Assembly (NCBI RefSeq): GCF_020217465.1
Contig: NZ_CP084115.1
Location: 2,790,001 to 2,854,000 of the forward strand
Direction: 5' to 3'
DNA length: 64,000 nt
From: Cobetia amphilecti
GTDB lineage: Bacteria; Pseudomonadota; Gammaproteobacteria; Pseudomonadales; Halomonadaceae
The notes beneath the pieces are model-generated. The model worked only from the letters and a program-made list of their open reading frames with translations, did not search any database and was not told where the DNA came from. Shown one piece after another: positions 3,848-64,000 of the stretch. Numbering within the stretch: position 1 is the stretch's first letter; every line of letters starts with the position of its first letter. Both the position numbers and the translations under genes were made by a program.

Positions 3848-3989
3848 ACCGCCGCGCTCGACGATCCCCTGCCCTGCAGCTTCCTGACAGCTTGCGGCAG
3901 CAACAGCCCTGATCGCCTGCGAGTGCCGGTTCATGCATGCCGCGAGCACGGAAGCGCCTTCGAAACACCCTGACCGAGCGACGCCCCTG

Positions 3990-4571: not shown

Positions 4572-4572
4572 C

Positions 4573-5211
4573 ATGCTCGAATTCTTCAACGACCATACGC
4601 TGATCTCTGCCATCGTCGCACTGGTGGCCATGGCCGTCGTCTTCGGCGGTCTGCTCGGCTTTGCCGCCGTGGCCTTCAAGGTCGAGGGCGACCCCATCGT
4701 CGAGCAGATCGACCAGCTTCTGCCGCAGACCCAGTGCGGCCAGTGCGGTTACCCGGGCTGCAAGCCCTACGCCCAGGCCATCGCCGAAGGCGACGAGATC
4801 AACAAGTGCCCACCGGGCGGCGAGAGCACCATCGCCTCGCTGGCCGACCTGCTGGGCCGCGAGGCCACGCCGCTGGATGGCGACAGCGACAACACGCCCA
4901 AGGTGGCGGTGATTCGCGAGGACGAATGCATCGGTTGCACCAAGTGCATCCAGGCCTGCCCTGTCGATGCCATTCTCGGTGCCGCCAAGCACATGCACAC
5001 CGTGATCGCCGACGAATGCACCGGCTGCGACCTGTGTGTCGAACCCTGCCCGGTCGATTGCATCGACATGGTGCCGGTCGCCACTGACGTGCGCAGCTGG
5101 CACTGGCCGCAACCGGCGGGCCCGACCCGCGACAATGCCAGCTTCAGCGGCAATCTGATCGTGACCGATGCCGCCGATTCTACTGCCACATCTGCAAGGA
5201 ATGTCGCCTGA
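4573..5211 (+). CDS. rnfB: Rnf complex iron-sulfur subunit B
   Basis: 212 residues. An N-terminal membrane anchor (about residues 8-36) is followed by a [4Fe-4S] domain with Cys55, Cys58, Cys63 and Cys79 ([10 protein letters not shown]...KCPPGG). Two ferredoxin-type clusters come next, at Cys119/122/125/129 and Cys149/152/155/159. RnfB receives low-potential electrons from ferredoxin and passes them into the Rnf membrane complex. The tail after residue ~170 is longer than in E. coli RsxB and is poorly conserved. The stop overlaps the rnfC start (TGATG), which indicates coupled translation. Confidence 0.95.
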
Positions 5212-8228: not shown

Positions 8229-8323
8229 GTGACCTGAGCCCCTCAAGCGTGCCAATGGCGACTCACCCTGAAGCACGCCTCGTGTCATTGCCCATTTACC
8301 GCAAGGATCTGACCGTCTCATGA
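8225..8323 (+). CDS. Small ORF bridging rnfC and rnfD
   Basis: A 32-codon frame (MSDLSPSSVP... ending ...KDLTVS) fills the 91-bp gap between rnfC and rnfD. Its ATG overlaps the rnfC stop as ATGA, and its TGA overlaps the rnfD start, again as ATGA. This geometry suggests translational coupling across the gap. AAGGA inside it lies 12 bases before the rnfD start. No homologue is recognised and there is no membrane segment. It could be a coupling leader with no function as a peptide. Confidence 0.4.
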   Translation: MSDLSPSSVPMATHPEARLVSLPIYRKDLTVS

Positions 8324-9360
8324 GCCTGATGCATGCAAGCTCCCCCCATGCCCACGGGCCAACCGCCACCTCGCGCGTGATGGCCTGGGTGCTGGCCGCG
8401 ACGCTGCCGGGTATCGCCGTACTGTGCTGGCACTATGGCTGGGGTGTGCTGTTCAACCTCGTCTTTGCCTGTCTGGCGGGTGTCGCCCTCGAGGCGCTGC
8501 TGCTCAAGTTGCGTGGCCGCCCGGTCAGCTTCTTCCTCAAGGACAATTCGGCGCTGGTGACCTGCGTGCTGCTGGCGGTGTCGTTGCCGCCGCTGGCGCC
8601 CTGGTGGCTGGTACTGACCGGCGTGATCGCGGCCATCGTGGTCGCCAAGCAGCTCTACGGCGGCCTGGGCCAGAATCCGTTCAACCCGGCGATGGTCGCC
8701 TATGCGCTGCTGCTGATCTCCTTCCCGGTCGAGATGTCGCGCTGGTCATCCCCGGATGGCTTCGCAATCGGCTTCACTGACAGCCTGCAACAGTTCTTCG
8801 GCGTGATCGCCACGCCAGACGCCCTGACCGGCGCCACGCCGCTGGACGCTTTCCGCAACAAGGGCGAGCTTTCCAGCAGCGAGTTCTGGGCAGACCCGAA
8901 CCTGCTGCCCGCCGCCAACCTGCTGGCCTGGCAGCAGATGGCCATCGCCTGGGGTCTCGGCGGCCTGGTGCTGCTGGCGCGTCGCCTGATCACCTGGCAT
9001 ATCCCGGTGGCGATGCTGGGCAGCCTGGCGGTGATCTCCGCCATCTTCGCCTTCGTGGATGGCGAGCAACACGCCAGCCCCCTGATCCACCTGCTGTGCG
9101 GTGCGGCGATCTTCGGCGCCTTCTTCATCGCCACGGACCCGGTCACGGCGGCGACCTCCAACAAGGGCAAGCTCTATTACGGCGTCGGCATCGGCGTGCT
9201 GATCTACCTGATTCGCACCTTCGGCGCCTACCCTGACGCCATCGCCTTCGCGGTGCTGCTGATGAACTTCAGCGTGCCGTTCATCGATTACTACACCCAG
9301 CCACGCAGCTATGGCCACAAGAAGGCCCGTCGCGGCATCAAGCTGGAGGACAAGGCATGA
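8320..9360 (+). CDS. rnfD: Rnf complex membrane subunit D
   Basis: 346 residues with about ten predicted membrane helices. The start MSLMHASSPHAHGP matches the conserved ASSPyxH beginning of RsxD (352 residues in E. coli). The segment GATPLDAFRN near residue 170 contains the Thr that carries covalent FMN in RnfD/NqrB (motif S/T-G-A-T-P-L). RnfD and RnfG form part of the ion-translocating path. It overlaps rnfG by four bases (ATGA). Confidence 0.95.
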   Translation: MSLMHASSPHAHGPTATSRVMAWVLAATLPGIAVLCWHYGWGVLFNLVFACLAGVALEALLLKLRGRPVSFFLKDNSALVTCVLLAVSLPPLAPWWLVLTGVIAAIVVAKQLYGGLGQNPFNPAMVAYALLLISFPVEMSRWSSPDGFAIGFTDSLQQFFGVIATPDALTGATPLDAFRNKGELSSSEFWADPNLLPAANLLAWQQMAIAWGLGGLVLLARRLITWHIPVAMLGSLAVISAIFAFVDGEQHASPLIHLLCGAAIFGAFFIATDPVTAATSNKGKLYYGVGIGVLIYLIRTFGAYPDAIAFAVLLMNFSVPFIDYYTQPRSYGHKKARRGIKLEDKA

Positions 9361-39923: not shown

Positions 39924-40913
39924 TCAGCCTCCCGTCATGTTCATGAAGCGAACGATCTGGACATCACCATCCGTCGTGAAGTGATGACGCTCGGGCTTGA
40001 GGTGCATGGCATCGATGATCGCGGCCTTGAGCGGCTCGATGTCACCCGGGTGGCGCCGCATGATGTCACGCAGATCAAGCGAGTGCTCATTGCCAAGACA
40101 CAGCAACAGACGCCCCTCTACCGTGACGCGAACGCGGTTGCAGGTCGAGCAGAAGTTATGACTGTGCGGTGAGATGAATCCCACCCGTGATTCGCTGTCC
40201 GCCATGCGGAAATAGCGCGCCGGCCCCAGACTGTCTTCAAGCGTGGGAATCAGCGGATAACGCGTCTCGATGCGCGCCTGGACATCATCACTGGAGCAGA
40301 AGGTCTCGTCACGACCGTGATCCGAGACCTGGCCCAGCGGCATCTCCTCGATGAAGCTGATGTCCAACCCTTCCTCACGCGCGAATTCGACCAGCGACAC
40401 CACTTCGTGATCATTGCGCCCTTTCAGCACCACTGCATTGAGCTTGATGCGGAAGCCTTCCTCGCGCGCAGCACGGATGCCGGCGATTACCTTGTTCAGG
40501 TCGCCGGTACGCGTCAGCGCCTTGAAGCGCTCCGGGTCCAGAGAATCAAGGCTGATATTCAGCCGTGACATGCCGGCGGCCTTCAACTGCGCGGCGTGCT
40601 TGGCAAGGCCCGCGCCGTTGGTGGTCATCGAGAAGTCCTTGAGCCCCTCGAGCGCGCCGATTTCATCGACCAGCTTGCCGATATCACGCCGCACCAGCGG
40701 CTCCCCGCCGGTCAGGCGAATCTTCTCGACCCCCAATTCCACGAAGGCGCGCGCCAGCAACGCGATCTCTTCGAGGCTCAAGACCTCGTCGCGCGGCAGA
40801 AAGGTCATCTCTTCGCTCATGCAATAGACGCAGCGAAAATCACAGCGGTCCGTCACTGACAGGCGAACATAGCGGATGCGACGACCGAAGTCATCGACCA
40901 GGGTTTCCATCAT
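39924..40913 (-). CDS. moaA: GTP 3',8-cyclase
   Basis: A 329-residue radical-SAM enzyme that, with MoaC, converts GTP to cyclic pyranopterin monophosphate, the first step of molybdopterin synthesis. The SAM cluster Cys lie in CDFRCVYC near residue 24. The C-terminal substrate cluster is in [21 protein letters not shown], and the essential terminal Gly-Gly is present (NMTGG). The length equals E. coli MoaA. The start overlaps the moaE stop, and GGGAGA lies just before it. It is the last gene of the block. Confidence 0.97.
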
Positions 40914-41530
40914 GACTCTCCCGAAAACTTGGGTGTTGCCAGCGCTGATTGTTTCTCTTCGCTGCTGGCCTCGGCCAATGAGTCATCAGCCTTGTGTTGC
41001 TCGGCAAGGGGGGATACCGCCTCACCCTCTGCCGTCACCACGGACTCTGGATGCCAGCGCTCGAGTGCCTCACGATCGCTCGAGCGTTCCCGCACCCAAT
41101 AATCTCCTGTGGCAGTGTGCTCCTTTTTCCAGAAAGGCGCCCGCGACTTGAGGTGGTCCATCAGGAAGTCACAGCCGGCAAAGGCCGCCTGACGATGCGC
41201 ACTGGCGACCAGCACCAGCACGATATTGTCGCCGGGCTCGAGCCGTCCGACACGGTGAATGATGCGCACCCCGGTGAGCGGGAAGCGCTCGCGCGCCTCT
41301 GTGATCAAGCGTTCGAGGCTGCGCTCCGTCATGCCGGGATAGTGTTCCAGCGTCAGCGCGACGACATCCGGTCGCTGGTTGAAATCACGCACCAGCCCCG
41401 TGAAGGACACCACGGCACCGATGTCGCCGCGCCCACGCGTCAGGACGTCCTGCTCGACACGCAGATCAAAATCGCTGGCCTGAATGCTGACCGAAAAGGC
41501 CTGCGAGGCTTCGTTTGCGACCTGGGTCAT
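40910..41530 (-). CDS. moaE: Molybdopterin synthase catalytic subunit
   Basis: 206 residues; the first ~150 align with MoaE (E. coli 150). [52 protein letters not shown] and the catalytic-lysine stretch [11 protein letters not shown] are conserved. The last ~50 residues form a charged extension of no known function. MoaE receives sulfur from the MoaD thiocarboxylate to build the dithiolene. It starts one base after the moaC-moaD stop. Confidence 0.94.
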
Positions 41531-41531
41531 G

Positions 41532-42380
41532 TCAGCCCCCCGTCACCGGTGGGAAGAAGGCGACTTCATCACCGGCATTCAGTGGGTGGTCATCGCGCAC
41601 CATGTCCTGATTGACGGCACACAGCACGCGAGTGTCATTGAGCGCTTCAAGCTGGGGGTCACGCAGCGCCAGGGTGCGCTTCAGGCCCCCGACCGTCGCT
41701 TCGGACAGCGTCGTCAGGTTCAGCGCCAGACTGTCGAGGTCCAGGCGTTCCCGCAGTTCCGCCAGGAAGAGGACCCGCACGGTGGCATCACCGCGTGCCG
41801 CCGGAGCGGCCTGTCCCGCTGTCGCTTCGATGGGCTCAGCTGTTACAGCAGGGCTTGGCCCAGTCCGGCTTGACTCAACCGGCGTCTGCTCGACAGCGGC
41901 GGCTTCCTCCGGGCGCTGCCAGTCACCACTCTTGCCGCCGGTCTTGGTCTCGAGCTGGATATCGCCGATCACGATACCCTTGTCGACCGCCTTGCACATG
42001 TCATAGAGCGTCAAGGCCGCCACCGAGGCCGCCGTCAGCGCCTCCATCTCGACACCGGTACGCCCATTGAGGCGACACAGCACCTGAATTTCCACACAGC
42101 TGTTGGCGCTGTCCAGCGTGAAGTCGACCGTCACCTTGGAGAGCATCAAGGCATGACAGAGCGGAATCAGCTCATGAGTGCGCTTGGCCGCCTGGATACC
42201 GGCAATACGCGCCGTCGCCAGCACATCCCCTTTGGGCAGGCCACCTTCGGCGAGCAGAGCGAGCGTGGCAGGCAGCATGCAGACGCGTGCGCTGGCTCGC
42301 GCCTCGCGGCGGGTTTCCTGCTTGTCCGCAACATCCACCATATGGGCTTCGCCGCGTGCGTTGAGATGAGTAAGGCTCAT
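41532..42380 (-). CDS. moaC-moaD: MoaC-MoaD fusion protein
   Basis: 282 residues in one uninterrupted frame. Residues 1-156 are MoaC, with [45 protein letters not shown] and [18 protein letters not shown]. The MoaC part ends in the usual [10 protein letters not shown] ~42-residue Ala/Glu/Thr/Pro linker leads to residues 199-282, a MoaD ubiquitin-like domain ([16 protein letters not shown]...VNQDMV...[13 protein letters not shown]). The free C-terminal Gly-Gly needed for thiocarboxylation is kept. MoaC completes cyclic pyranopterin monophosphate and MoaD donates sulfur to it with MoaE. The start at 42380 has only a weak ribosome site. Confidence 0.93.
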
Positions 42381-42542
42381 GAGCTGTCTCGTATCCGTAT
42401 CGGGTGCGCCTGACTGGCGGCAATCTCTGAAATACCAATGCCTGAAGAAGCAGGCAGGCAAGCCCTGATGAACAGGACTGGCCAAGAAATTAGCAGACTA
42501 TCTTTTCATGAATCAGCTGGCATGACCACTGCGCGGCATCGC

Positions 42543-43958
42543 CTAGACGATGCCGCGGCTGCCCAGCCACTGCACCATGACCGGCTCGCCGGCGTGAAGC
42601 GTGGCGCAGCCGGCGGGAATCTCGATCAGGCATTCGGCCAGCAACATCGAGGTCAGAATACCCGAGCCCTGCCGCCCCGTGGTCATCACCACCTGACGCC
42701 CCTGGTCATCCAGAACGATCTGGCCGCGATGATAGTCGACACGCTCGGCACGTGAGCGCAGCGTCTCGCCGGCGATCAGCTGCAGGCGCGGGGCTTGCCA
42801 CTGCGCCAGCGTCGTCGCGGAGGCACTCGCCTCATCCTTCGCCAACCGCTGCTGGCCCGACAACAGGCGCAGCGCGGGCAGCACGAACTGCAGGAAGGTG
42901 ACCATGGTCGCCACCGGATTGCCCGGCAAGCCGAAGAACGGCACCTGACCAGATGACGACGCGTCGTCGGCGGGAGTGGCACGCAACATGCCGAACGCCA
43001 GCGGGCGACCCGGACGCATGGCGATGCGCCACAGCGCGAGCTCACCACAGGCAGCGAGGGCGCTGCGAACATGATCGGCCTCGCCCACCGACACGCCGCC
43101 GGAGGTGATGACCATGTCGGCACGCGTCGCGGCATCCCGCAGGGCAGCAGTCACGCTCGCCTCGTCATCGCTCAGGATGCCAAGATCCAGCACCTCGATG
43201 CCCTGATCGCGCAGCAGCGCCACGAGGCTGAAGCGATTGGCGTCATAGATGCCGCCGGCCGACAGTGTCTCGCCGGGGGCCGTGACCTCGTCACCGGTGG
43301 AGAAGATCGCCACCGTCAGCGGCCGATAGACGGCGACCTCGGCGAGCCCGAGCGAGGCCAGCACGCCCACGGCGGCAGGCGTCAGCCACTGGCCCGGCGC
43401 CATCACCTGGCTGCCGCGCGCGATGTCCTCACCGGCCTGACGCACATTCTGGCCACGGCGAATGCTGGTCACGCCTTCGATCACCACCTGCTCGCCTGCT
43501 TCGCCCTCACCCTGTGTGGAGCGATATTCGAGCTGCTCCTGCATGACGACGGTGTCGGCGCCTGCGGGCAGGGCCGCGCCGGTCGTGATGCGCATGGCTT
43601 CCCCCGCGGCGAGCGCCCGGCCCGTCCAAGGGTGGCCCGCCAGCGAGCTGCCGATCACGCTCAGCTGGCAGTGATCGCTCAATTCGCCGCGATCGCTCAG
43701 AGGCTCGCCGCTCGCCGCGTCTGGCAATGAAGCCCGTGCCAGCGCGATGCCGTCCATCGCCGCGTTGGTCTGCGCCGGGACATCCAGCGGCGAGATGACC
43801 GTCTCGGCGAGCACACGTCCGGGCGCCTGCGCCAGGGCGACACGCTCGCTGCGTGGCGTGCGCATCACGCCCGCCAGGCTCTCCCCCAGCACGCTCAAGG
43901 CTTCATCGACACTCAGCATGCGCTCGCCGAAACGCGGATCGAAACACGACAGACTCAT
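42543..43958 (-). CDS. moeA: Molybdopterin molybdenumtransferase
   Basis: 471 residues, longer than E. coli MoeA (411) through insertions in loops. It inserts molybdate or tungstate into adenylated molybdopterin. Visible signatures are MDGIALA near residue 70, RITTGAALPAGADTVVMQE, IFSTGDEVTAPGE, MVITSGGVSVGEADHVR and FFGLPGNPVATMVTF. The ATG overlaps the mobB stop (ATGA). The gap to moaC-moaD is 162 bp. Confidence 0.95.
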   Translation of the reverse strand: MSLSCFDPRFGERMLSVDEALSVLGESLAGVMRTPRSERVALAQAPGRVLAETVISPLDVPAQTNAAMDGIALARASLPDAASGEPLSDRGELSDHCQLSVIGSSLAGHPWTGRALAAGEAMRITTGAALPAGADTVVMQEQLEYRSTQGEGEAGEQVVIEGVTSIRRGQNVRQAGEDIARGSQVMAPGQWLTPAAVGVLASLGLAEVAVYRPLTVAIFSTGDEVTAPGETLSAGGIYDANRFSLVALLRDQGIEVLDLGILSDDEASVTAALRDAATRADMVITSGGVSVGEADHVRSALAACGELALWRIAMRPGRPLAFGMLRATPADDASSSGQVPFFGLPGNPVATMVTFLQFVLPALRLLSGQQRLAKDEASASATTLAQWQAPRLQLIAGETLRSRAERVDYHRGQIVLDDQGRQVVMTTGRQGSGILTSMLLAECLIEIPAGCATLHAGEPVMVQWLGSRGIV

Positions 43959-44671
43959 GCGCCCACCTCGCCACGCGGCTTGCCGCCTTCCAGACGCCAA
44001 TGCACCGGCCAGGCGGCGATCCAGGCGGCCAGCGCCTGAGGATCGTCAAGGTCCAGCCGCTTGAGGTCCTGCGGCACATCATCACGAGGCGGCAGCTGCG
44101 CCGCCGGTGTCGCCAGCGCATGGATCCAGGGGTCCTCTGGGGCTCGCAGCGGCTTGCCCACGGCCTCGCGGTACAGCTCAAGCTTGGGCAGCGGCCACTG
44201 CTTGAAGCCCTCGACCAGAATCAGGTCCACCTCCAGCCCCTCGAGCTGCGCCACCAGCTGCTCCAGATCGGCCTCCGCCTGGTCCGGCGTTTCCATCATC
44301 AGCGCAAAGCGCTTGGCGGACGCCACCAGCATCGGCACGGCACCGGCCGTTCGCAGACGATGACTGTCCTTGCCCGGCGTATCGACATCAAAGGCATGAT
44401 GCGCATGCTTGATCACGGCGACACGGAGGCCGCGCGCTCTCAGCTCGGGCAGCAGCTGCTCGAGCAGCGTGGTCTTGCCGGTGCCGCTCCAGGCCGCGAT
44501 GCCCAGCAGCGGACACGCTGACGCCGCCAGCCGTGCCTGCCAGGCGGGCGACATCCCGACTTCATGAGAAATATCTCCACGCGGCGTGGGAGCATCACTG
44601 CGGGGGGAGGAATGTTCAGCACTGACAGCGGTATCAGCACGCTGGTCAGTCGTGGAAGAAGACTCAGGCAT
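43955..44671 (-). CDS. mobB: Molybdopterin-guanine dinucleotide adaptor MobB
   Basis: 238 residues from the ATG at 44671 (MPESSSTTDQ); an upstream in-frame start at 44722 is possible. After a ~55-residue disordered leader, the GTPase Walker A is IAAWSGTGKTTLLEQLL, followed by VAVIKHAHHAFDVDTPGKDSHRLRTAGA and LILVEGFKQWPLPKLELYR. All three are typical of MobB (E. coli 175). MobB assists MobA in forming the guanine dinucleotide form of the cofactor. Confidence 0.92.
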   Translation of the reverse strand: MPESSSTTDQRADTAVSAEHSSPRSDAPTPRGDISHEVGMSPAWQARLAASACPLLGIAAWSGTGKTTLLEQLLPELRARGLRVAVIKHAHHAFDVDTPGKDSHRLRTAGAVPMLVASAKRFALMMETPDQAEADLEQLVAQLEGLEVDLILVEGFKQWPLPKLELYREAVGKPLRAPEDPWIHALATPAAQLPPRDDVPQDLKRLDLDDPQALAAWIAAWPVHWRLEGGKPRGEVGA

Positions 44672-45069
44672 GAAGGTTCTCTTGATGATTCCGGCGTATG
44701 GCGGCCTGTCGACGGGGCTCACCGCAGCGCTCCCGCGCCCGCAAGGGAAAAGATGACGATGACAATGCGGGCTGAGCGGATGCCATGAAGGTGAACACGC
44801 ATGGCGCTCATTTCAATGGGCAACGGCTCGATATGAGCAAGGGCTCAATGGGGCTACGACGCAGAGTGGCAAGACACCCGCCAGAACCGCCAGACACGAC
44901 ACTTTTGAGGTGCAACGCCAAGGCCATCAATACCGGGCAGGTAAAGACAATAACCCGCCAGACTCCTGAAGAGACGCCCCCGGCGATGACGACCTGCATC
45001 ACAATGACACACCTTGGGCGTGCAAGCGGGAACGGATGACACGCAAAGGACGTCAGGAAAGAAGCGCGC
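44672..45069. other. Spacer between mobA and mobB
   Basis: 398 bp separate two same-strand cofactor genes. The open frames here lack ribosome sites and recognisable products. I see no Moco-riboswitch-like conserved sequence and no strong hairpin. A promoter for the mobB-to-moaA part may lie here. Confidence 0.35.
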
Positions 45070-45786
45070 TCAGCGCGAGCCGGCTTCCATCTCACGGCAT
45101 TCTTCAAGGGTATTGAGATTGGCGAAGTCCTGCTCGCTGCCCGCCTGCACCTTGAGCCAGACGTGCTGATCGAACCAGCGGTCGATCTTGCGCTCGCCAG
45201 CGGCCAGCGCCGCCTGCAGCGAGGGTAGCAGGCCACGATGCATGAGACAGATCACCGGATGGTAACGGAACTCGTCTGCCGCCACGGCCAGCAGCGCAGG
45301 CCCGGCATCAACCGCGTGACCGCCCTCGACAGTGAAGCCTTCCAGCTGATCGCCGTTGGCATGATCGATCAGCGCCACACTCAGCGTCTCGACCAGTTCA
45401 TTGGGCAGGTGCGGCACATCGCAGGCCACCATCATCACCCAGGGCGTCCGCGCTGCCGCCAGCGCACTGGCCATGCCCATCAGGGGGCCGTGGTAACCCG
45501 GCTCGCTATCTTCGACCAGCGGATGCCCATAGGCGGCATATTCGGCGTGCGAGCGATTGGCATTGATCAGCAGCTCGCCCACCTGAGGGGTCAGGCGCGC
45601 CAGCACATGCGCCACCAGCGGCACCTCATTGAGCGTGACCAGTCCCTTGTCGACGCCACCCATGCGCCGCGCCTGGCCACCGGCCAGCACCACCCCGGTG
45701 ATATTGGCGGGCGTGAGCGAGGCCTTGAGCTGCTCGGCATCGCTCGGCAGTGGCGTGGCGTCAGAGGTGTGATTGGAGCTCGGCAT
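45070..45786 (-). CDS. mobA: Molybdenum cofactor guanylyltransferase
   Basis: 238 residues from the ATG at 45786; E. coli MobA has 194. A ~28-residue variable leader precedes the nucleotidyltransferase signature ITGVVLAGGQARRMGGVDKGLV, then LINANRSHAEYAAYG, HGPLMGMASALAA and VACDVPHLPNELV. It transfers GMP from GTP to molybdopterin. It lies 154 bp downstream of tupC, with a foldable element between them. Confidence 0.93.
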   Translation of the reverse strand: MPSSNHTSDATPLPSDAEQLKASLTPANITGVVLAGGQARRMGGVDKGLVTLNEVPLVAHVLARLTPQVGELLINANRSHAEYAAYGHPLVEDSEPGYHGPLMGMASALAAARTPWVMMVACDVPHLPNELVETLSVALIDHANGDQLEGFTVEGGHAVDAGPALLAVAADEFRYHPVICLMHRGLLPSLQAALAAGERKIDRWFDQHVWLKVQAGSEQDFANLNTLEECREMEAGSR

Positions 45787-45857
45787 GAAGGCGTATCCCG
45801 GTCGAGTGCGCAAAGGCGCAGGTAATGTCATGCAGCAGGGCTGCTGGCAGAGCATCC

Positions 45858-45915
45858 AGTGCAAGCGGCTGATGAACAGGGCTTTCTCAGCCCTGAAGCT
45901 TGAGGTGCTTGCACT
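45858..45915 (-). ncRNA. Nested hairpin in the mobA leader
   Basis: Read on the minus strand, AGTGCAAGC and GCTTGCACT form an outer 9-bp stem. A nearly symmetric internal loop (11 and 10 nt) leads to an inner 7-bp stem, CAGGGCT/AGCCCTG, closed by GAGAA. It lies 72 nt before the mobA start. It may be a terminator/attenuator or a structured leader. No known riboswitch class is recognised. Confidence 0.45.
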
Positions 45916-45939: not shown

Positions 45940-46752
45940 TCAGCCCGCTGAGGGCTCAGTGTGCAGGCTGGCAGCGCTCAGCGTCCAGCGCGCACTCGAG
46001 CCCTGGCTCAAGGCATTGTCCTGATGCGAGGACAGGATCACCGCACACCCCTGCTGGCACATCTGCTCCAGTCGCAACGCCAACTGCTCGACGGCGGCCT
46101 GGTCCAGATTGGCGGCAGGCTCATCCAGCAACAGCACCGGCGGACGCGACAACCAGGCGCGCGCCAATGCCAGTCGCGCCCGCTCGCCACCCGACAGGGA
46201 GCGGGCGGGCTGTCGGGCCTGATCGCTCAGCCCGCTCCAGCGCAGCATCTCTTCGACCTGATCACGCTGCTGGCCGGCAGAGCCGCTGTCGGGTTGCCAG
46301 CGAGCCGCCAGCACCAGATTGCCGGCCACGCTGGTGTCGAACAGATACGGCTGCTGGTGCAGGTAGCGCACCGGATGAGCGTCACGGGTCTGCCATTCAA
46401 GCTTGCCGCCAGTCGCGGGCTGCATGCCGGCCAGCACGCGCAGCAGCGTGGTCTTGCCGCTGCCGTTGTCACCCTTGAGGTGCACCCAGCCGGACGCCGG
46501 GGTCGGCGCCCAATCCAGTGCCGCCACATGCCATAACAGGCGACCTTGCGCCTCGGCGCTCTCGCCGGATGCCTGCGCCGCAGCCGGCAAGCGATATTCG
46601 AGGCCGCGCACACGCAACAGAGGGGCAACGCTTGCGTCAGCAGCGAGTACCTGGGCAGCAGACGGCGAGGCTTGCGCGAAGCCAGTCCCCGTCACCGGGC
46701 AGGAGGGGTCGCCCGGGGGAACAGACGAGGACGAAGAACTAGGGGGGAACAT
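45940..46752 (-). CDS. tupC: Tungstate ABC transporter ATPase
   Basis: 270 residues. A Ser/Pro/Ala-rich leader of ~45 residues precedes a standard ABC ATPase: Walker A KGDNGSGKTTLLRV, Q-loop LHQQPYLFDTSV, signature LSGGERARLALARAWL, Walker B VLLLDEPAANLD and switch SSHQDN. It is assigned to tungstate by its position after tupB and tupA. The second of two adjacent ATGs (46752) is better spaced from GGAG. A 118-bp gap separates it from tupB. Confidence 0.87.
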   Translation of the reverse strand: MFPPSSSSSSVPPGDPSCPVTGTGFAQASPSAAQVLAADASVAPLLRVRGLEYRLPAAAQASGESAEAQGRLLWHVAALDWAPTPASGWVHLKGDNGSGKTTLLRVLAGMQPATGGKLEWQTRDAHPVRYLHQQPYLFDTSVAGNLVLAARWQPDSGSAGQQRDQVEEMLRWSGLSDQARQPARSLSGGERARLALARAWLSRPPVLLLDEPAANLDQAAVEQLALRLEQMCQQGCAVILSSHQDNALSQGSSARWTLSAASLHTEPSAG

Positions 46753-46870
46753 CATGACTCCATACGACGATTCAGCCTGACGCGATCAGTGCTGGTGTGC
46801 TTGTCTCAACGGGCTGGCAGGCGGCTTGCAGACTGTGGGGGCAGAACGTGACTGGCGGCGAGGCCGCGGG

Positions 46871-47575
46871 TCACGCCTGTACCACCAGTTGACCGCGACC
46901 GCGCAACAGCCCCAGCATCAGATTGAGCGCCAGTGCCAACACCAGCAATACCATGCCCAGGGCAACCCCCTGGGCATACTCGCCCTTGAGGGTTTCCAGC
47001 GCGATGGCCGTGGTGATATTGCGCGTGAAACCGGCAATGTTACCACCCACCATCATGGCGCAACCCACTTCAGCGATGATTCTACCAAACGCGGCCACCA
47101 ACGCCGCCATCACGCCGAACCGGGCTTCCATCACCAGCCGCCACAGCGCCGCCCGGCGCGACGCCCCCAGCTGCAAGGCCGTCTCCCAAGCACGCTTGTC
47201 GACGCCCGCCAGCGCGGCATGCAGCATCACCACCAGAATCGGCAGGGCGAGCAGAATCTGCCCGATCACCATCGCCGGCTGGGTGAACAGCAGATGCCAG
47301 TCGCCCAGCGGGCCAGCGCGCGACAGCAGGATGAACAGCAGCAGCCCCACCACCACGGTGGGGACGGCCATCAGGGTATTGATCAGCGAGATCAGCAGCC
47401 AGCGCCCCGGGAAGGCACAGCGAACCAGCACGAAGGCGATCAACAGTGCCGGTGGCACCGCGATCAACATCGCCATCAACGAGACACGAAACGACACGCC
47501 GATGATCTCCCACAGCGCGCCATCCATGCTCAGCAGGAGGCTCATGGCCTCCTGCGTGGTTTGCCACAAGCTCAC
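46871..47575 (-). CDS. tupB: Tungstate ABC transporter permease
   Basis: A 234-residue inner membrane protein with about five to six helices. The permease EAA loop is ETALQLGASRRAALWRLVMEARFGVMAALVAAFGRIIAEVGCAMMVGGNI, the long form seen in TupB/WtpB-type oxyanion permeases. It starts with GTG at 47575, overlapping the tupA stop (GTGA), which indicates coupled translation with the binding protein. Confidence 0.9.
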   Translation of the reverse strand: MSLWQTTQEAMSLLLSMDGALWEIIGVSFRVSLMAMLIAVPPALLIAFVLVRCAFPGRWLLISLINTLMAVPTVVVGLLLFILLSRAGPLGDWHLLFTQPAMVIGQILLALPILVVMLHAALAGVDKRAWETALQLGASRRAALWRLVMEARFGVMAALVAAFGRIIAEVGCAMMVGGNIAGFTRNITTAIALETLKGEYAQGVALGMVLLVLALALNLMLGLLRGRGQLVVQA

Positions 47576-48495
47576 GAACGCGGCTCAGCCTGTGCACCCT
47601 GCGCCTTCACCGGCGCGCGCTCAGAGGCGCGGTCCGCTGTCTGGCGAGCATCGAAGCCGGTCTCGCCGTGGCTGGCATGGAACAGCGCCTTGCCCTTGAG
47701 ACGGTAATCATCGATTGCCTGCTGCCCTTCGCTGGAAATCAGCCATTGGGCCAGCTCACGCGCACCACGGGTATTGAGCCCGTCATGATTGGCCGGGTTG
47801 ACCAGAATCACCTGATAGGGGTTGAAGAGGCGCGCATCGCCCTCGACCAGAATCTCAAGCTCGAGCTTGTCTTCCATCGCAAGCCAGGTGCCACGATCGC
47901 TCAAGGTGTAATCCTGCAGCTCACTGGCCATGCTCAGTACCTTGCCCATGCCCTGGCCGACGGCCTTGTAGCCGGAGAAGTCAGGGGTGACATCGGCACT
48001 CTGCCACAGGTCCAATTCCTTCTTGTGGGTGCCGGAATCATCGCCGCGCGAGATGAAGCCGGCATTGGCGCCGGCGATCTTGCCCAGTGCCGCGTCCACA
48101 TCCTGCATGCCATCAATGGCCGCCGGGTCCGCCTCGGGGCCGAGCAGCACGAAGTCGTTGTACATCACGCCATGCGGTTCGACACCGTAGCCGGCATCGA
48201 CGAACTTGCGCTCGGCGCCCGGGGCGTGGGTCATCACCAGATCCACATCGCCATCCTGCCCCATGCGCAACGCCTTGCCGGTACCAACCGCGATGACCTG
48301 AATGGTGACATCGTGGGCCTGTTCATACTCCGGCAGCAGGTGATCGAGCAGGCCTGAGTTGTAGGTGCTGGTCGTGGTGGCCAGACGGATGATGTCGTCG
48401 GCTGCCTGGGCCGGCAGAATGCTCAGCGCACCGAATGACAGGCCTGCGAGGGTGGCCAGCAGGCGACGAGAAGACAAGGTATGGCGTTGCGGCAT
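47572..48495 (-). CDS. tupA: Tungstate-binding periplasmic protein
   Basis: 307 residues. A signal peptide (about residues 1-31, ending SILPAQA) leads to the mature start ADDIIRLATTTSTYNSGLLDHLLPEYE. The TTTSTxxSGLL motif is the tungstate-binding signature that distinguishes TupA from ModA and WtpA. VGTGKALRMGQDGDVDLVMTHAPGAE, VMYNDFVLLGP and FISRGDDSGTHKKELDLW are also conserved. The ~40-residue Ala/Arg-rich tail is unusual. GGGAG precedes the ATG, and a sigma-54-type promoter lies 67 bp upstream. Confidence 0.94.
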   Translation of the reverse strand: MPQRHTLSSRRLLATLAGLSFGALSILPAQAADDIIRLATTTSTYNSGLLDHLLPEYEQAHDVTIQVIAVGTGKALRMGQDGDVDLVMTHAPGAERKFVDAGYGVEPHGVMYNDFVLLGPEADPAAIDGMQDVDAALGKIAGANAGFISRGDDSGTHKKELDLWQSADVTPDFSGYKAVGQGMGKVLSMASELQDYTLSDRGTWLAMEDKLELEILVEGDARLFNPYQVILVNPANHDGLNTRGARELAQWLISSEGQQAIDDYRLKGKALFHASHGETGFDARQTADRASERAPVKAQGAQAEPRS

Positions 48496-48561
48496 GGGGG
48501 TGCTCCCTGAATATTTTTTCTGGCGTGACGGTCTTGATGACATCAACGTGAATGCTGACTG

Positions 48562-48577
48562 TGCAAACGACATGCCG
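48562..48577 (-). promoter_or_regulatory. Sigma-54 (-24/-12) promoter of tupA
   Basis: The minus strand reads CGGCATG-TCGT-TTGCA against the consensus TGGCACG-N4-TTGCW: 10 of 12 defined bases, with the invariant GG and GC correctly ten bases apart. Transcription would start near 48551, giving a leader of about 56 nt. The divergent neighbour encodes a sigma-54 activator. Confidence 0.7.
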
Positions 48578-48859
48578 AAAGCGCTGTGGTGACGAAACGG
48601 ACTATCCGATAAAGGCTTTCAAGGCTTTGGCAGACGGGGCTGATACATGGACTGGCACGCAAGACAGCCGGCGATGATACCGGAATCTTCTCCAGCAGGC
48701 AGACTTGCCGGCTCCCGCCTCCTGTCGTCCCTATCGTCCCTGACGCCCCTCTCGCCCTCTCGCCCTGCTGACGTCGCTATCCCTAGCGGGGCGAATGACG
48801 CTGCTGGAATGGCACTGCCGGAATGGCCGAGAAAATACTGACAATAACTCCAGGCATGA

Positions 48860-49127
48860 CCATCACTGCCCCATGACGACCCGATTGCCGAGTCATCGCC
48901 GTGCCTTGCGTAGCGCAACGGGGCAGCCTGCCAACCCTGCCCGCCAGCGCCGCGTGCTGACAAGGCTGCAAGGCCCTGCCTGTGGCCAGCACAAGCAGAA
49001 AGAGGCAGCAATGTGGCATCCAGCGCTAGATTACCAGTGAGCAGCACGCCACAATGCCCGCATGATAGAGATGATCTCCCCTGCGACCATTACTGCCCTG
49101 TTGACCCGAGGAATGCCATGACTGCCC
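48860..49127. repeat. Three copies of CCATNACTGCCC before the response regulator
   Basis: Copies lie at 48860-48871, 49087-49098 and 49116-49127. The first two also share the preceding GA, and the third overlaps the response-regulator start codon. All have the same orientation. The rest of the 48496-49117 spacer (622 bp) holds the tupA sigma-54 promoter and no convincing gene. Confidence 0.6.
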
Positions 49128-50707
49128 ACGCCCCCTCCACACCCCGTGAGACCCGGCGTAGCGGCAGCGACCCCCTCCCCACCGCCTCGGTACTGATCGT
49201 CGATGACGAGCCCGGCATGCGCCGCTATCTGGAGAAGGCACTTTCCTCGCGCTTCGCGCTGATCGAGTGTGCCGACAGTGTCGAGCAGGCCGAAGCCCTG
49301 CGCTCGCGACTGCATTTCGACCTCATCCTGCTCGACATTCGCCTGCCGGGGCGCGATGGCCTGGATTGGGATGAAGCGCTTGCGCCCTCTTCGGTCAGCG
49401 ATGTCATCTTCATGACCGCCTACGCCGATCTCGAGACCGCTGTGCGCGCACTGCGGGCCGGAGCCTGTGATTTCATCATCAAGCCGTTTCGTCTCGAACA
49501 GTTGCAGGCCGCGCTAGACCGCTGCCTTGAGCGCCGCCAGCTGACGCGGGAAAACTTCCTGCTCCGTCGCGACAATGCCCGCCATCAGCAGGAAGAGGCC
49601 AGCCTCAAGGGCGAGAGCCCTGCCATGCAAGAGCTGGCGCATATCATCGCGCGCGTTGCTCCCGCGCCCTCGCCAGTGCTGATTCTGGGGGAATCCGGCA
49701 CCGGCAAGGAGCTGGCGGCGCGTGATCTGCATCGCCTGTCCGGTCGGCACGGCGCCTTCGTGCCGGTCAACTGCGGCGCCATCAGCCCGGAGCTGTTGGA
49801 GAGCGAGCTGTTCGGCCATCTTAAAGGTGCCTTTACCGGCGCGCACCGTGGCCGTGATGGCCTGTTCAGCTTCGCCGATGGCGGCACGCTGTTCCTGGAT
49901 GAAATCGGCGAGATGCCATTGGCGATGCAGGCCAAGCTGTTGCGAGTGCTGGAGACGCGCCGCGTGCGCCCCGTCGGCGGCGAGCAGGAACAGGCGGTGG
50001 ACGTGCGTATCGTCGCCGCCACTCACCGCACGCTGGAGACGGAGGTGGCCGCGGGCCGCTTCCGCGAAGACCTCTACTATCGCCTCAACGTGCTGAGCCT
50101 GACACTGCCGGCCCTGCGCGAGCGCCCGGAGGACATCCCGGCGCTGGCCCAGCATTTCTCGCGGCAGCTGTCGCGTGAGCTCAACCTCCCCGCCGTGCCC
50201 TGGCAGCATTCTGATCTCACTCGCCTGTGCCACTATTCCTGGCCCGGCAATGTGCGGGAACTCAAGAACGTCATCGAGCGCGCCTTGCTGCTCGGCCGCC
50301 TGCCCGGCGATACCCTGCCGGTCGACAGTCAGGCCGCACAGGCACCAGGCCACGAGATATGGGACGGCAGCGGGGACGCGACCACCTCCCCCAAGGAAGA
50401 GGCCGCCAGCAGCGGCTATCCACTCGAGTGGTCATTGGATGCGGTGGAAAAGGCCCATCTGTGCGCGGTACTGGAGCGACATGCCAACAACAAGTCAGCC
50501 GCCGCCCGCCAGCTGGGCATCTCGCGCAAGACGCTGGATCGCAAACTGACCACCTGGCGCGCCGAGCAGCAAATCAGTGAGGACAGTGGCGCTGAGAATG
50601 CCACTGAGAATGGCACTGAGATTGGTACTGAGAGCGGCACTGAGAGCGATCAACCCGCCCCCGCCACCTCGTCCGCCGCTCCCTACGGAGCCGACGGCAG
50701 CGCATGA
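49118..50707 (+). CDS. NtrC-type sigma-54 response regulator
   Basis: 529 residues. The receiver domain (23-140) has phospho-acceptor Asp73 in LILLDIRLPG. The AAA+ domain (about 165-400) has Walker A LGESGTGKELAARDLH, the sigma-54 contact loop GAFTGAH, Walker B GGTLFLDEIGEM and RFREDLYYRLNVL. A Fis-type helix-turn-helix (SAAARQLGISRKTLDRKL) follows near residue 470. The last ~40 residues are a repetitive Thr/Glu/Gly tail from a 12-bp DNA repeat. It should activate sigma-54 promoters when phosphorylated. It overlaps the kinase gene by four bases and is divergent from tupA. Confidence 0.93.
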   Translation: MTAHAPSTPRETRRSGSDPLPTASVLIVDDEPGMRRYLEKALSSRFALIECADSVEQAEALRSRLHFDLILLDIRLPGRDGLDWDEALAPSSVSDVIFMTAYADLETAVRALRAGACDFIIKPFRLEQLQAALDRCLERRQLTRENFLLRRDNARHQQEEASLKGESPAMQELAHIIARVAPAPSPVLILGESGTGKELAARDLHRLSGRHGAFVPVNCGAISPELLESELFGHLKGAFTGAHRGRDGLFSFADGGTLFLDEIGEMPLAMQAKLLRVLETRRVRPVGGEQEQAVDVRIVAATHRTLETEVAAGRFREDLYYRLNVLSLTLPALRERPEDIPALAQHFSRQLSRELNLPAVPWQHSDLTRLCHYSWPGNVRELKNVIERALLLGRLPGDTLPVDSQAAQAPGHEIWDGSGDATTSPKEEAASSGYPLEWSLDAVEKAHLCAVLERHANNKSAAARQLGISRKTLDRKLTTWRAEQQISEDSGAENATENGTEIGTESGTESDQPAPATSSAAPYGADGSA

Positions 50708-52971
50708 TCAAGCGCCTGCGCCATTACTTCGCCGGTTCGCTGCGGCGCAGGCTGCTGCTGCTGACACTGGCGCCGCTGCTGGCGCTGATGCTGGCGCTGG
50801 TCGGCCTGACCGCCTACTGGACCACGGCCTATACCGACCGCCAGCTGTACATGAACGTGCGCAGCGACCTCGATGTTGCCAGCCGCACGCTGCAGAGCCA
50901 ACATCAGCGCCTGCGTGATGGCCTGGAGGCGATGCGTCGCAACCTGCGCCAGCTGGTGACACCCGATGAGCAGACCGCGCAGCTGTTGCCACGGCTGGTG
51001 CCGCGCCTAGATACCATGCGGGACACTCTCAATGCCGACTGGCTGCGCTGGCTGCCCACCGAGCAGTTGCGCCAGACGCCCGGCGTCGCCGCGCTGATTC
51101 CGCAACTGGCGCGCGGCGAAAGCCTGGATGGCCTCGACATGCTGTCCAGCGACTCACTGGCGACGCTGGACCCTGCCCTTGCCGAGCGCGCGCGCCTTGC
51201 GCTGCGCCAGACACCCTACGCACAACCCAGTGCCCGCCGCGAGGAAAACCGCGGCATGCTGCTGCGGGCGCTGGTGCCCATCCTCGATGGCGAGGGCAAG
51301 CTACTGGGCGCGCTGGATGCGGGCCGCCTGCTCAATCGCGACCCGCGTCTGGTCGATGAGATCCGCGATCTGCTCTACGGCCCCGGCACCCTGCCGGAAG
51401 ATGGCACCGGCACCATCACCCTGTTTCTCGATGATGTCCGCATCGCCACCAATGTCACCGACGCCAGCGGCGAGCGTGCACTGGGCACGCGTGCCTCGCT
51501 GGAGGTGAAGCGTCAGGTGATCGGCAATGGCGAGCGCTATATCAATCGTGCCTTCGTGGTTCGTGACTGGTTCGTGGCCGCCTATGCCCCGCTGGATTCC
51601 CTGGATGGCCAGCGGATCGGCATGATCTACGCAGGCTATCCGCAGGCGCCCTACGCGCGGCTCTATCGCGAGACGCTGACGCATATCAGCTTGGTGCTGA
51701 TCGCGGTCAGTCTGTTGGGGGTACTGCTGGCGTGGAGCAGCATCGAGCGCCTGATGCAGCCGATCCGACAGATTCGCCGTGTGGTGCATGCGGTGCGTGA
51801 TACCCCATCCCAGGAGGGCCTGCGCATAGGCCCGCTGTCCTCTCTGGGGCCGGCGCAGCGACACGGTGATGAGCTGGATGAACTGGCCGAGGAATTCGAC
51901 GCCATGCTGGCGCGACTGGAAGCGCACCGCCACGAGATACAGCTCGCGGCCCAGACGCTGGAAGCCCAGGTGGAGGATCGCACCCGCGATCTGAGCGCCC
52001 AGACCGCTACGCTGCGCGAACGCAGTCAGGCGCTGGAGGAGCACGTCCGCCTGCTGCGCGAAGCGCGTGCGCGCCTGCTGACCCGCGAGAAACTGGCGGC
52101 GCTGGGCGAGCTGACGGCGGGTATCGGCCACGAGATCAACAACCCCGCCGCGGTGATTCTGGGTCATGTCGAGTTGATCGAGGTGATACTCGGTGAACAG
52201 GCCGAGCCGGTGCGCGAGGAAATCGCCACCATCATCCATCAGGTCGAACGCATTCGCGCGCTGGTCGACAACCTGCGTCAGTACGCGCGCGACCCGCTCG
52301 CCTCAAACGACATTGGCGACGGCAACTCACTGACGCCGTCACTCGGTGCGCCTCACCTCAGCCAGATTCATCCCGATGAGGCGATCCACAGTGTCGAGGT
52401 GCTGGTCAGGCACGCGCTTGATCATCATGGCCATCAATTGCAGCATGAGCTGGCGGCGACGCGCTTGATCGAGGCCGATCGCGCGCAACTGACCCAGGTG
52501 CTGGTCAATCTGCTGATCAACGCCATCGAGATGGCGCCTGCGCCGGATACGCTGTGCATCACCAGCCGTGATCGTGATGCAGCGCTGACCGTGATGAGCG
52601 GCGAGCCAAACAGCCGTCCGGATACGTCAGTCTCAGCGCCAGCGCCAGCCTCAGTGCCAACGGAACTCGCCCCCGTGGCGGGAGTCGAGATACGCGTCAT
52701 CGATCACGGCGCTGGCGTGCCCGAGCATCTCAAGTCGCGCATCTTCACGCCCTTCTTCACCACGCGCGCCAATGGCTCGGGCATCGGTCTGTCGGTCTCA
52801 TCGGGCTTGATCACCCAGCTGGGGGGCAGGCTATGGCTGGAAGATACCCCCGGGGGCGGCGCCACCTTCTGCCTGTGGCTGCCGTGCATCGCACGCCGGC
52901 ATCATGAGGATGATCAAGGGCGCCATCTGCTCGAGACGCTCAGCGCCGGGGGCAGCAGTCGCTCGCCTTGA
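50704..52971 (+). CDS. Membrane sensor histidine kinase (NtrB-like)
   Basis: 755 residues. An N-terminal membrane helix (about 14-40), a periplasmic sensor of ~280 residues that resembles a double-Cache region, and a second helix (about 327-350) precede a HAMP segment and coiled coil. Catalytic His476 lies in GELTAGIGHEINNPAAVI. The ATPase domain has QVLVNLLINAIEMA, IRVIDHGAGVPEHL and ITPFFTT-type plus GSGIGLSVSSGLI boxes, interrupted by a ~40-residue Ala/Pro insert. It presumably phosphorylates the overlapping response regulator. The ligand is unknown; oxyanion sensing is an inference from position. Confidence 0.92.
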   Translation: MIKRLRHYFAGSLRRRLLLLTLAPLLALMLALVGLTAYWTTAYTDRQLYMNVRSDLDVASRTLQSQHQRLRDGLEAMRRNLRQLVTPDEQTAQLLPRLVPRLDTMRDTLNADWLRWLPTEQLRQTPGVAALIPQLARGESLDGLDMLSSDSLATLDPALAERARLALRQTPYAQPSARREENRGMLLRALVPILDGEGKLLGALDAGRLLNRDPRLVDEIRDLLYGPGTLPEDGTGTITLFLDDVRIATNVTDASGERALGTRASLEVKRQVIGNGERYINRAFVVRDWFVAAYAPLDSLDGQRIGMIYAGYPQAPYARLYRETLTHISLVLIAVSLLGVLLAWSSIERLMQPIRQIRRVVHAVRDTPSQEGLRIGPLSSLGPAQRHGDELDELAEEFDAMLARLEAHRHEIQLAAQTLEAQVEDRTRDLSAQTATLRERSQALEEHVRLLREARARLLTREKLAALGELTAGIGHEINNPAAVILGHVELIEVILGEQAEPVREEIATIIHQVERIRALVDNLRQYARDPLASNDIGDGNSLTPSLGAPHLSQIHPDEAIHSVEVLVRHALDHHGHQLQHELAATRLIEADRAQLTQVLVNLLINAIEMAPAPDTLCITSRDRDAALTVMSGEPNSRPDTSVSAPAPASVPTELAPVAGVEIRVIDHGAGVPEHLKSRIFTPFFTTRANGSGIGLSVSSGLITQLGGRLWLEDTPGGGATFCLWLPCIARRHHEDDQGRHLLETLSAGGSSRSP

Positions 52972-53076: not shown

Positions 53077-53808
53077 ATGTCGCACGATAGCTCCCCTACT
53101 GCCTCAGAACCTCTCACTGCCGGCAAGGCAGCACAGCCCACTGACGACAAGAAAATGGCAGACGAGGAAATGGCAGCGTCTCGCACGCTGGGCAAGCGGC
53201 TGCGCGAACTGCGCACGCGTCATGGCCTCTCTCAGCGCGAACTGGCCAAGCGTGCTCAGGTGACCAACTCGACCATCTCGCAGGTCGAGCAGGACGCGGT
53301 CAGCCCTTCCGTCAGCTCGCTGAACAAGATTCTAGAGGTATTTCCGATCTCGCTGAGCGACTTCTTCAGCGATGAGATACCCGTCGAACCACCACGCATC
53401 CTACGTGGCAACGAGCATGAGCCGATTGCGGGCTGTGGACCGGGACTCACGCTGCGACGCATTGATCGATCCCGGCAGACATCGCCACAGCCCCAGGTCG
53501 AGCTGGGCAGCCTCGCACCGGGGTGCAGCGCCTATCTGCAGGCCGCGCATGACAGCCTGGTGCTGGTGACGCACGGCGCACTGCGTATCGAGTTCCCCGC
53601 GACGGCGGCCTGCCAGGAGGCACTTCTCGAATGTGGTGATGCTGCGCGACTGCATGCCGGGGAGCGCTATCAACTGCATTGGCGCAAGCCTGAGGCGTCG
53701 CAAGCCGCAAGCCATGAACTCTCAAGCAGTGAAGTTAACCATCACGGGACCTCCGACGCTGCCGAGGCCCCAGACTGCCAGTGGCTATGCATCACACAGA
53801 GTCGCTAG
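53077..53808 (+). CDS. XRE-cupin transcriptional regulator
   Basis: 243 residues. An acidic leader is followed by an XRE helix-turn-helix (LGKRLRELRTRHGLSQRELAKRAQVTNSTISQVEQDAVSPSVSSLNKIL, about 38-90) and a C-terminal cupin (about 130-225), the architecture of PuuR-like regulators. These often control polyamine or amino-acid genes through a small ligand in the cupin. The target here is unknown. The ATG at 53077 starts MSHDSSPT. The stop overlaps the GT4 gene stop by three bases, tail to tail. Confidence 0.87.
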   Translation: MSHDSSPTASEPLTAGKAAQPTDDKKMADEEMAASRTLGKRLRELRTRHGLSQRELAKRAQVTNSTISQVEQDAVSPSVSSLNKILEVFPISLSDFFSDEIPVEPPRILRGNEHEPIAGCGPGLTLRRIDRSRQTSPQPQVELGSLAPGCSAYLQAAHDSLVLVTHGALRIEFPATAACQEALLECGDAARLHAGERYQLHWRKPEASQAASHELSSSEVNHHGTSDAAEAPDCQWLCITQSR

Positions 53809-63638: not shown

Positions 63639-63938
63639 TGAGGTAGCCCCTATCCTTGAGCAGTGCCTGTCCGGCAAGGCGCAGTGGTCGGTGATTGTCA
63701 GAATCAGCAGATCAAGACGAACTCGCTCGGACAGGTATGCCGCACAGGGCGTCGGATGAAGCTTTTCCCCTGTTCAGCCTGCCTGAACCACGATGCCCCG
63801 CCAGCGGCAGGGCATCGAAAGGCGCAACATGGTACCCAAAGGTCTGCAGCGAATCGAGCATTCCCGGCATATTTCCTGACCAGTCAGACGAGTTCTGGCG
63901 TCATGCCAGTGAGTTGATCCGCTGCAGACCTGCAAGCC
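63639..63938. other. Spacer upstream of the purine permease
   Basis: 300 bp with one good hairpin, CGATGCCC (63791-63798) and GGGCATCG (63810-63817), which may terminate the upstream minus-strand gene. The permease promoter must also be here. No purine riboswitch-like sequence was recognised. Confidence 0.5.
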
Positions 63939-64000
63939 TCATGCCAGACGGGAGGCCATGACCCGCTCGACGGTCTCGACAATCGCCTGGGTTTGCGGGT
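63939..64000 (-). CDS. 3' end of an unidentified gene (partial)
   Basis: The last ~20 codons and a TGA stop are present, reading ...TQAIVETVERVMASRLA. The frame is open to the window edge and is followed by the hairpin at 63791. The fragment is too short to name. Confidence 0.5.
   Translation of the reverse strand, partial: PQTQAIVETVERVMASRLA

Follow-up and report, generated by a model that had tools for sequence, protein, structure and literature searches.

When an operon for tungstate uptake lies back to back with the genes of a two-component system, what does that system sense, and which genes does it serve? The question is raised by a stretch of the Cobetia amphilecti genome (contig NZ_CP084115.1 of RefSeq assembly GCF_020217465.1, positions 2,790,001 to 2,854,000 of the forward strand), termed here the window, whose 64,000 nucleotides (nt) include tupA, a gene for a tungstate-type ATP-binding cassette (ABC) substrate-binding protein (47572..48495, minus strand). 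This gene is preceded by a -24/-12 promoter element of the sigma-54 type and is divergent from genes for an NtrC-type response regulator (49118..50707, plus strand) and a membrane sensor histidine kinase (50704..52971, plus strand). Known controls of molybdate/tungstate uptake answer, to our knowledge, to metal or cofactor. The evidence set out below makes it quite probable that here a sigma-54 two-component system couples tungsten/molybdenum supply to formate dehydrogenase (FDH), with formate the most likely periplasmic ligand.

A sigma-54-type promoter element ahead of tupA

An initial reading made from the letters of the window without database searches (the sequence-only reading) had placed a -24/-12 element with GG-N10-GC spacing upstream of tupA, and the present analysis bears this out. 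The element, CGGCATGTCGTTTGCA, occupies 48562..48577 of the minus strand (CGGCATG-TCGT-TTGCA, its GG and GC ten bases apart), and 66 nt separate it from the tupA ATG at 48495. A transcript driven by it would be predicted to start near 48551 on the minus strand. The operon that begins with tupA, tupABC-mobA-mobB-moeA-moaC/D-moaE-moaA, extends on the minus strand to 39924. The tup transporter had been named as the target; the tup genes do lie downstream of the element, but the description was incomplete, as this promoter serves an operon for both uptake and cofactor synthesis, larger than the transporter alone. The divergent pair, also as first read, is confirmed by its Pfam domains: a receiver, a sigma-54 AAA+ domain with GAFTGA and a Fis-type helix-turn-helix (HTH) in the regulator, and an sCache_3_3 sensor region, HAMP, HisKA and HATPase in the kinase, whose gene overlaps that of the regulator by 4 nt (the HAMP match, at 24.1 bits, is slightly below its cut-off of 25). 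Regulator residues D29, D30, D73 and K122 and the GAFTGA motif are invariant across 29 aligned sequences, the window's own among them.

The strict form YGGCATGN4TTGCA occurs twice in the 64-kb window against 0.04 expected from shuffles, and YGGCAYGN4TTGCW nine times in the 4.16-Mb genome against two for the reversed control. A looser consensus allowing up to two mismatches is not rare (22 matches in the window, 16.3 expected). Because loose matches are common, the site alone constitutes weak evidence; its conservation makes the evidence strong. Sites were scored for this purpose on a scheme of our own with a maximum of 22, built from the sigma-54 consensus.

The window's second strict match, TGGCATGAGGCTTGCA (63931-63946, minus strand), lies near permease-like reading frames (L039; by reading). 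Two further strict sites of the genome were also placed by reading, one before an ammonium-transporter-like frame (L034 1501-1516) and the other beside an RpoN-like frame (L032 1501-1516).

Conservation of the element with the regulator and kinase

TupA was found in 121 of the 201 genomes of the family, from which a locus set was formed of the window and the 30 other loci of highest TupA identity (at least 56%). The order tupABC-mobA-mobB-moeA is kept in all 31 and continues to moaCD-moaE-moaA in 28 (the others being L042, at a contig end, L055 and L056), while the regulator and kinase genes lie divergent from tupA in 30, the window included. All 30 pair-bearing loci carry, within 200 nt of tupA, an element scoring 19.6-21.4 of 22, so that no family relative with the same gene order lacks it; the score of 19.6 was reached in 0.8% of shuffle draws and in 30 of 2335 background windows. 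The remaining locus, L049 of genome G038, retains tup-mob-moe-moa and has neither pair nor element (best score 14.4). G038 is also without the DUF3306 FDH cluster described below, and pair, element and FDH cluster are thus jointly absent. Two loci counted as pair-bearing were left out of the alignments: L047, a Halomonas assembly whose kinase frame has an internal stop near 4317, and L042, a Cobetia assembly whose regulator is split over two frames (3880-5360), each a case of decay or of sequencing error.

A named set of 80 gammaproteobacterial loci, the best 80 of 132 matches to an alignment of the kinase sensor, extends the comparison and overlaps the family set. TupA and the regulator are present in 69 of these; the other 11 are contigs that break off or kin pairs with different neighbours. 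Among the 69, the element scores at least 19.6 in 63, takes a weak form of 17.1-18.9 in four and is absent from two. Genomes with an element of at least 19.6 before tupA belong to 17 named genera: Cobetia, Halomonas, Chromohalobacter, Modicisalibacter, Oceanospirillum, Nitrincola, Amphritea, Neptunomonas, Neptuniibacter, Marinospirillum, Marinobacterium, Leucothrix, Aliivibrio, Vibrio, Photobacterium, Enterovibrio and Aeromonas. The sensor is uncommon: when genomes were drawn evenly across the class, 18 of 274 matched its alignment (14 at E <1e-70). As a control, a second TupA group (about 44% identity, order tupB-C-A) has no element of at least 19.6 upstream of tupB in any of its ten loci, and a single locus reaches 19.8 upstream of tupA, at a position internal to the operon. 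In a kinase tree computed in quick mode, 54 of the 57 tup-linked rows fall into one group with L136 (a cut contig), but the tup label needs four changes, and the linkage to tup is therefore not strictly that of one clade. Aeromonas cavernicola (L153) carries two equal-scoring elements upstream of tupA, 22 nt apart.

A palindromic enhancer

Dyad analysis of the tup regions yielded a palindromic enhancer, GGGWCANNNTGWCCC, that recurs upstream of the -24 position. If no more than one mismatch is allowed, 71 of the 93 regions contain it against 0.1 expected, the 93 being only those regions with a strong -24/-12 element. After removal of redundancy it occurs in 53 of the 69 regions that are distinct, or in 30 of 42 clusters, against 0.045 expected; because the motif was discovered in tup regions, these counts are not independent. 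Many loci have a second, usually weaker copy 20-60 nt away, and in L089 and L090 a perfect copy lies farther than 260 nt from -24. Three Oceanospirillum loci (L097 5748, L100 5754, L108 5754) contain an exact enhancer-like palindrome inside the regulator gene itself, which is either a coding coincidence or an internal site.

A formate dehydrogenase cluster as a probable second target

Further enhancer copies lie in a cluster that starts with DUF3305, DUF3306 and an Fe-S protein gene and is divergent from fdhD; the enhancer is common to both operons across families. In the window's own genome, a strict -24/-12 site (2003222..2003207) precedes DUF3305 of such a cluster, in which DUF3305-DUF3306 are followed by genes for the Fe-S protein, a TorD-type chaperone and a 'formate dehydrogenase region TAT target' (46.4 bits against a cut-off of 48.45), and then by one for an alpha-type subunit of formate dehydrogenase (427.7 of 666 bits, the gene running off the end of the sequence analysed). 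In this FDH branch there are three sites that resemble the enhancer, and a GG-N10-GC core lies 85 nt from one of them. A search of the whole genome for the enhancer is uninformative alone (40 sites at one mismatch against 33 in the control, none perfect); three of the 40 fall in the FDH cluster.

The FDH loci lie outside the regions in which the motif was discovered, and there all 30 pair-bearing genomes were compared with 31 pairless ones, chosen by us from 89 pairless genomes with DUF3306. The enhancer is found at the cluster in 26/30 pair-bearing versus 3/31 pairless genomes, and a -24/-12 site of at least 19.4 located 350-1400 nt before DUF3306 in 23/30 versus 0/31, 18 of these 23 being within 900 nt. 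In every pair-bearing locus with an enhancer after DUF3306 (24 of 24, the window's genome included), a GG-N10-GC core follows 84 or 85 nt downstream of it. The 84-nt spacing recurs in 16 of the 73 named loci of at least 9.5 kb, with up to two enhancer mismatches allowed; the next commonest, 179, was counted 10 times. Of the family genomes, 119 have both TupA and DUF3306, two have TupA alone (G038 and G186), none has DUF3306 alone and 80 have neither. The sequence-only reading had proposed sigma-54 two-component control dedicated to the tungstate transporter: such control is strongly supported by the joint conservation of element and pair, but "dedicated" is too narrow, since the FDH cluster carries sites too.

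In L098, the gene directly after fdhD combines an HTH_17 with a PBP_like domain (8093-8998, minus strand), and in the window's genome the gene at that place has HTH_17 and a long C-terminal part (L180 8284-9333, plus strand). We take the HTH_17 plus PBP_like make-up to be that of the metal-responsive TaoR family, and the gene to be TaoR-like on this ground. To judge from these domains, metal sensing may lie with the HTH_17 gene by fdhD, and the two-component system may signal that the enzyme is required.

The kinase sensor and its candidate ligand

The periplasmic sensor region of the kinase (50812..51687, plus strand; residues 37-328 of the kinase) spans 292 residues, of which sCache_3_3, present both as domain and as fold, forms the membrane-proximal part (residues 174-287). 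The sensor was modelled with a predicted local distance difference test score (pLDDT) of 92.8, and its best matches among solved structures (VIA-align) are 8py0 and 8py1, both formate-bound. These resemble it in fold over 151 and 136 residues, in belonging to the sCache_3_3 family and in a shared stretch with R-x-x-T and R-x-x-G-T motifs; they differ in being chemoreceptors, with sensors of 157 and 156 residues versus 292 here and 21-26% identity.

Within the family, strong kinase matches number 30, and they come from the same 30 genomes in which the pair adjoins tup. Kin kinases that share most of the conserved sensor residues adjoin fdnG or a carboxylate transporter with no tup nearby (a comparison that left out L135, L123, L154, L136, L126, L119 and L120). 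In L229-L232, from four genomes of the family (genus g20) without TupA or DUF3306, a kin regulator-kinase pair precedes an L-lactate/oxalate-formate-type transporter; of the four scanned, two pass the L-lactate NCBIfam cut-off and two are slightly under it, the oxalate/formate matches being under cut-off. Because kin pairs stand before carboxylate-type transporters, the ligand could be another small carboxylate. On the strength of the sensor model, the kinase probably senses formate rather than an oxyanion. Two ligands had been suggested at the outset: an oxyanion finds no support, while a metabolite tied to a tungsten/molybdenum enzyme does, formate being the best candidate with formate-bound 8py0 and 8py1 the nearest structures.

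Published evidence

In Vibrio parahaemolyticus, deletion of rpoN lowered VP1510-VP1515 (Fe-S protein, formate dehydrogenase) by log2 3.2-4.8, VP1501 by 1.5 and VP1508 by 1.8; VP1501, VP1508 and VP1510 carry -24/-12 sites and are marked as V. cholerae chromatin immunoprecipitation (ChIP) peaks (PMC9817140). The terms 'tungst' and 'molybd' are absent from the main text of that paper, and the part of it available names no activator, enhancer, tungstate link or ligand for these genes. VP1501 is probably tupA, an identification of our own made because its site is identical at 18 of 19 positions to the tupA site of Vibrio sp. Y2-5. The Vibrio rpoN data mostly fit the proposal and give indirect support to an RpoN-dependent promoter. 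In V. cholerae, the regulator is presumably VC1522. VC1522 is called a response regulator in one paper and VC1523 divergent in another, with no function given in the portions available.

Among other sources, a survey of sigma-54 places an anaerobic-dehydrogenase group, in which formate dehydrogenases make up 32%, under predicted sigma-54 control; 'tungst' does not appear in it (PMC12316311). Work on Cupriavidus necator discusses rpoN for hydrogenase and ascribes a slight fitness effect on formate to unknown sigma-54 functions (PMC11540253). Two candidate precedents were set aside: FlgR-modABD of Helicobacter pylori, where the effect is an indirect repression through sigma-28 (PMC12622350), and a Marinobacter tupABC paper, whose main text contains neither 'sigma-54' nor 'two-component' (PMC8233155). 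No such pair appears in the available parts of a Mo-utilisation survey (PMC6147048) or a Desulfovibrio paper (PMC10102598), and the matches listed in the open-licence literature, as far as their text was available, include no description of the pair with tup or fdh. The initial impression that the arrangement was not a described one therefore holds for the activator among those matches, but RpoN dependence of the Vibrio FDH genes, and probably of tupA (VP1501), is in print, and sigma-54 control of many FDHs has been predicted (PMC12316311).

Proposed circuit and alternatives

In the circuit that we propose, a periplasmic ligand, most likely formate, would be bound by the sCache_3_3 part of the sensor, and the kinase would phosphorylate the NtrC-type regulator, which would bind the palindromic enhancers and drive the sigma-54 holoenzyme (Esigma54) at -24/-12 promoters. 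Its targets would be the tupABC-mobAB-moeA-moaCDEA operon and, elsewhere in the genome, the DUF3305-DUF3306-FeS-TorD-TAT-fdhA cluster. We also lean, with modest confidence, toward a more specific proposition, namely that the kinase is a periplasmic formate sensor, that the pair is the missing sigma-54 FDH activator in Vibrio, Aeromonas, Oceanospirillaceae and part of Halomonadaceae, and that it is the enzyme's substrate, not the metal, that turns on tungstate uptake and the synthesis of the cofactor.

Several observations weigh against this proposal. Related sequences are not independent trials, and p-values overstate their independence. At the tup promoters, named loci L118 and L120 lack the element and L096, L110, L115 and L117 have weak forms of it. 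The window's own tupA-regulator intergenic region is without the enhancer at up to three mismatches, as are L040-L043 at up to two mismatches within 260 nt of -24; L044, a member of the window's genus, has a perfect copy, and the tup branch in Cobetia may rely on a diverged or weaker site or be partly decayed itself. At the FDH cluster, the enhancer was not found in the pair-bearing genomes L238, L240, L242 and L259, five of the upstream -24/-12 sites are more than 900 nt away and may be chance occurrences, sites of at least 19.4 after DUF3306 are no commoner with the pair (3/30) than without it (4/31), and the family cores at 84-85 nt score 15.5-18.7, below that 19.4 cut-off. The kin pairs of L229-L232 have the same enhancer and no -24/-12 element. 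As to the sensor, Foldseek ranks another chemoreceptor, 9heh, first, and 8py0 and 8py1 may be the only solved sCache_3_3 domains, which would bias the solved members of the family toward formate. An electrophoretic mobility shift assay, finally, gave no RpoN binding at the VP1510 promoter, and its authors call the control indirect (PMC9817140).

The alternative closest to the proposed circuit keeps its genes and promoters and replaces the ligand by another small carboxylate (lactate, oxalate, pyruvate or acetate), formate being merely a relative. Kin pairs that adjoin L-lactate and oxalate/formate-type transporters, some with the same enhancer, speak for it, and the formate-bound matches may reflect which proteins were crystallised; both nearest solved sensors hold formate, however, and the targets are formate dehydrogenase genes; this substitution is rather unlikely. 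A kinase that senses periplasmic molybdate or tungstate, making the system a switch for metal homeostasis that acts on uptake and only secondarily on formate dehydrogenase, would suit the neighbourhood of tupABC and cofactor genes and the coincidence of strong family kinase matches with pairs beside tup. Such a switch seems improbable when set against the gene already adjoining fdhD, whose HTH_17 and PBP_like make-up is that of the TaoR family, the match of the sensor to formate-bound folds, the siting of kin kinases with most of the conserved sensor residues by fdnG or a carboxylate transporter without tup, and a genome that has tup without the pair and also lacks the DUF3306 FDH cluster.

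The remaining alternatives concern the promoter rather than the signal. Were the -24/-12 sites real but served by another activator, such as NtrC, with the neighbouring pair acting elsewhere, the lack of a recognisable enhancer at the window's tupA promoter would be explained, and activators can act in trans; yet at the FDH clusters both the sites and the enhancer go with the pair, and pair, element and cluster disappear together in G038, so that this option is very unlikely. Hardly credible at all is a chance match, with tup under ModE-like or riboswitch control. Loose matches to the consensus are common, but chance is rejected by the conservation of the element, which reaches 19.6 or more in the 17 genera. 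Riboswitch control is rejected on an empty scan: no Moco/Tuco (molybdenum or tungsten cofactor) RNA was found in the window or L180, where no Rfam family reaches its gathering threshold; no search for ModE was made.

Relation to known systems

If the formate-responsive circuit is as proposed, a metal-supply operon would be controlled via the substrate of the metal-using enzyme, and by a two-component system. A close parallel is the FhlA regulon of E. coli, in which a sigma-54 activator answering to formate drives a formate-using molybdoenzyme and its maturation genes. Activator type, formate and molybdoenzyme genes are common to both; FhlA, however, is one-component and cytosolic, whereas here the sensor is the periplasmic part of a membrane kinase, which is paired with a phosphorylatable regulator of the NtrC type, and tungstate-type uptake belongs to the predicted regulon. 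DctB/DctD and other cache-kinase/NtrC-type pairs are alike in architecture and mode of action and differ in targets and likely ligand. TaoR/TupR-type regulators, reportedly described by Rajeev in 2019, are said to control tupABC together with tungstoenzymes. They resemble the present case in that control and in the HTH_17 plus PBP_like gene by fdhD, but are one-component and metal-responsive, in contrast to a sigma-54 two-component system. The TaoR family is cited in PMC10102598. With the Vibrio RpoN regulon the likeness is the RpoN-dependent formate dehydrogenase operon, for which published work, in the part available, stopped at RpoN (PMC9817140) and the pair now provides a candidate activator. 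The proposal further offers a testable ligand for a kinase found beside tup in 17 named genera and, for regulon prediction, an enhancer motif with a recurrent spacing of 84-85 nt.

Other genes of the locus

All genes that follow tupA in the operon lie on the minus strand. They comprise tupB, the ABC permease gene (46871..47575); tupC, for the ABC ATP-binding protein (45940..46755), assigned by position, its top NCBIfam match being to other ABC ATPases; mobA, for the molybdenum cofactor guanylyltransferase (45070..45864; start codon uncertain), mobB (43955..44722) and moeA (42543..44000), each with a family match; moaC-moaD as a single open frame of 317 amino acids (41532..42485; MoaC 49-184, ThiS 238-317); and moaE-type (40910..41530) and moaA-type (39924..40913) genes, both named from a reading of the sequence without family search, their order being kept in relatives. 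TupA, with a signal peptide by reading, matches its NCBIfam model at E 1.5e-64 and 217.9 bits, the curated cut-off of 400 not being reached, and TupB scores 175.1 bits against a cut-off of 320; as both are below the equivalog cut-offs, the transporter is named TupABC-type only. TTTS is a conserved TupA feature according to PMC8233155, and RLATTTS is present in the window protein and in L040-L049. The genome encodes a separate ModA, which would leave the Tup-type transporter free for tungstate; this is consistent with selective tungstate binding and no proof of it. The joint moaC-moaD match of the window's single frame is seen in relatives too. On the 3' side of the kinase gene, an XRE-type HTH gene (53077-53808, plus strand) is matched in many Halomonadaceae relatives, the pairless L049 among them.

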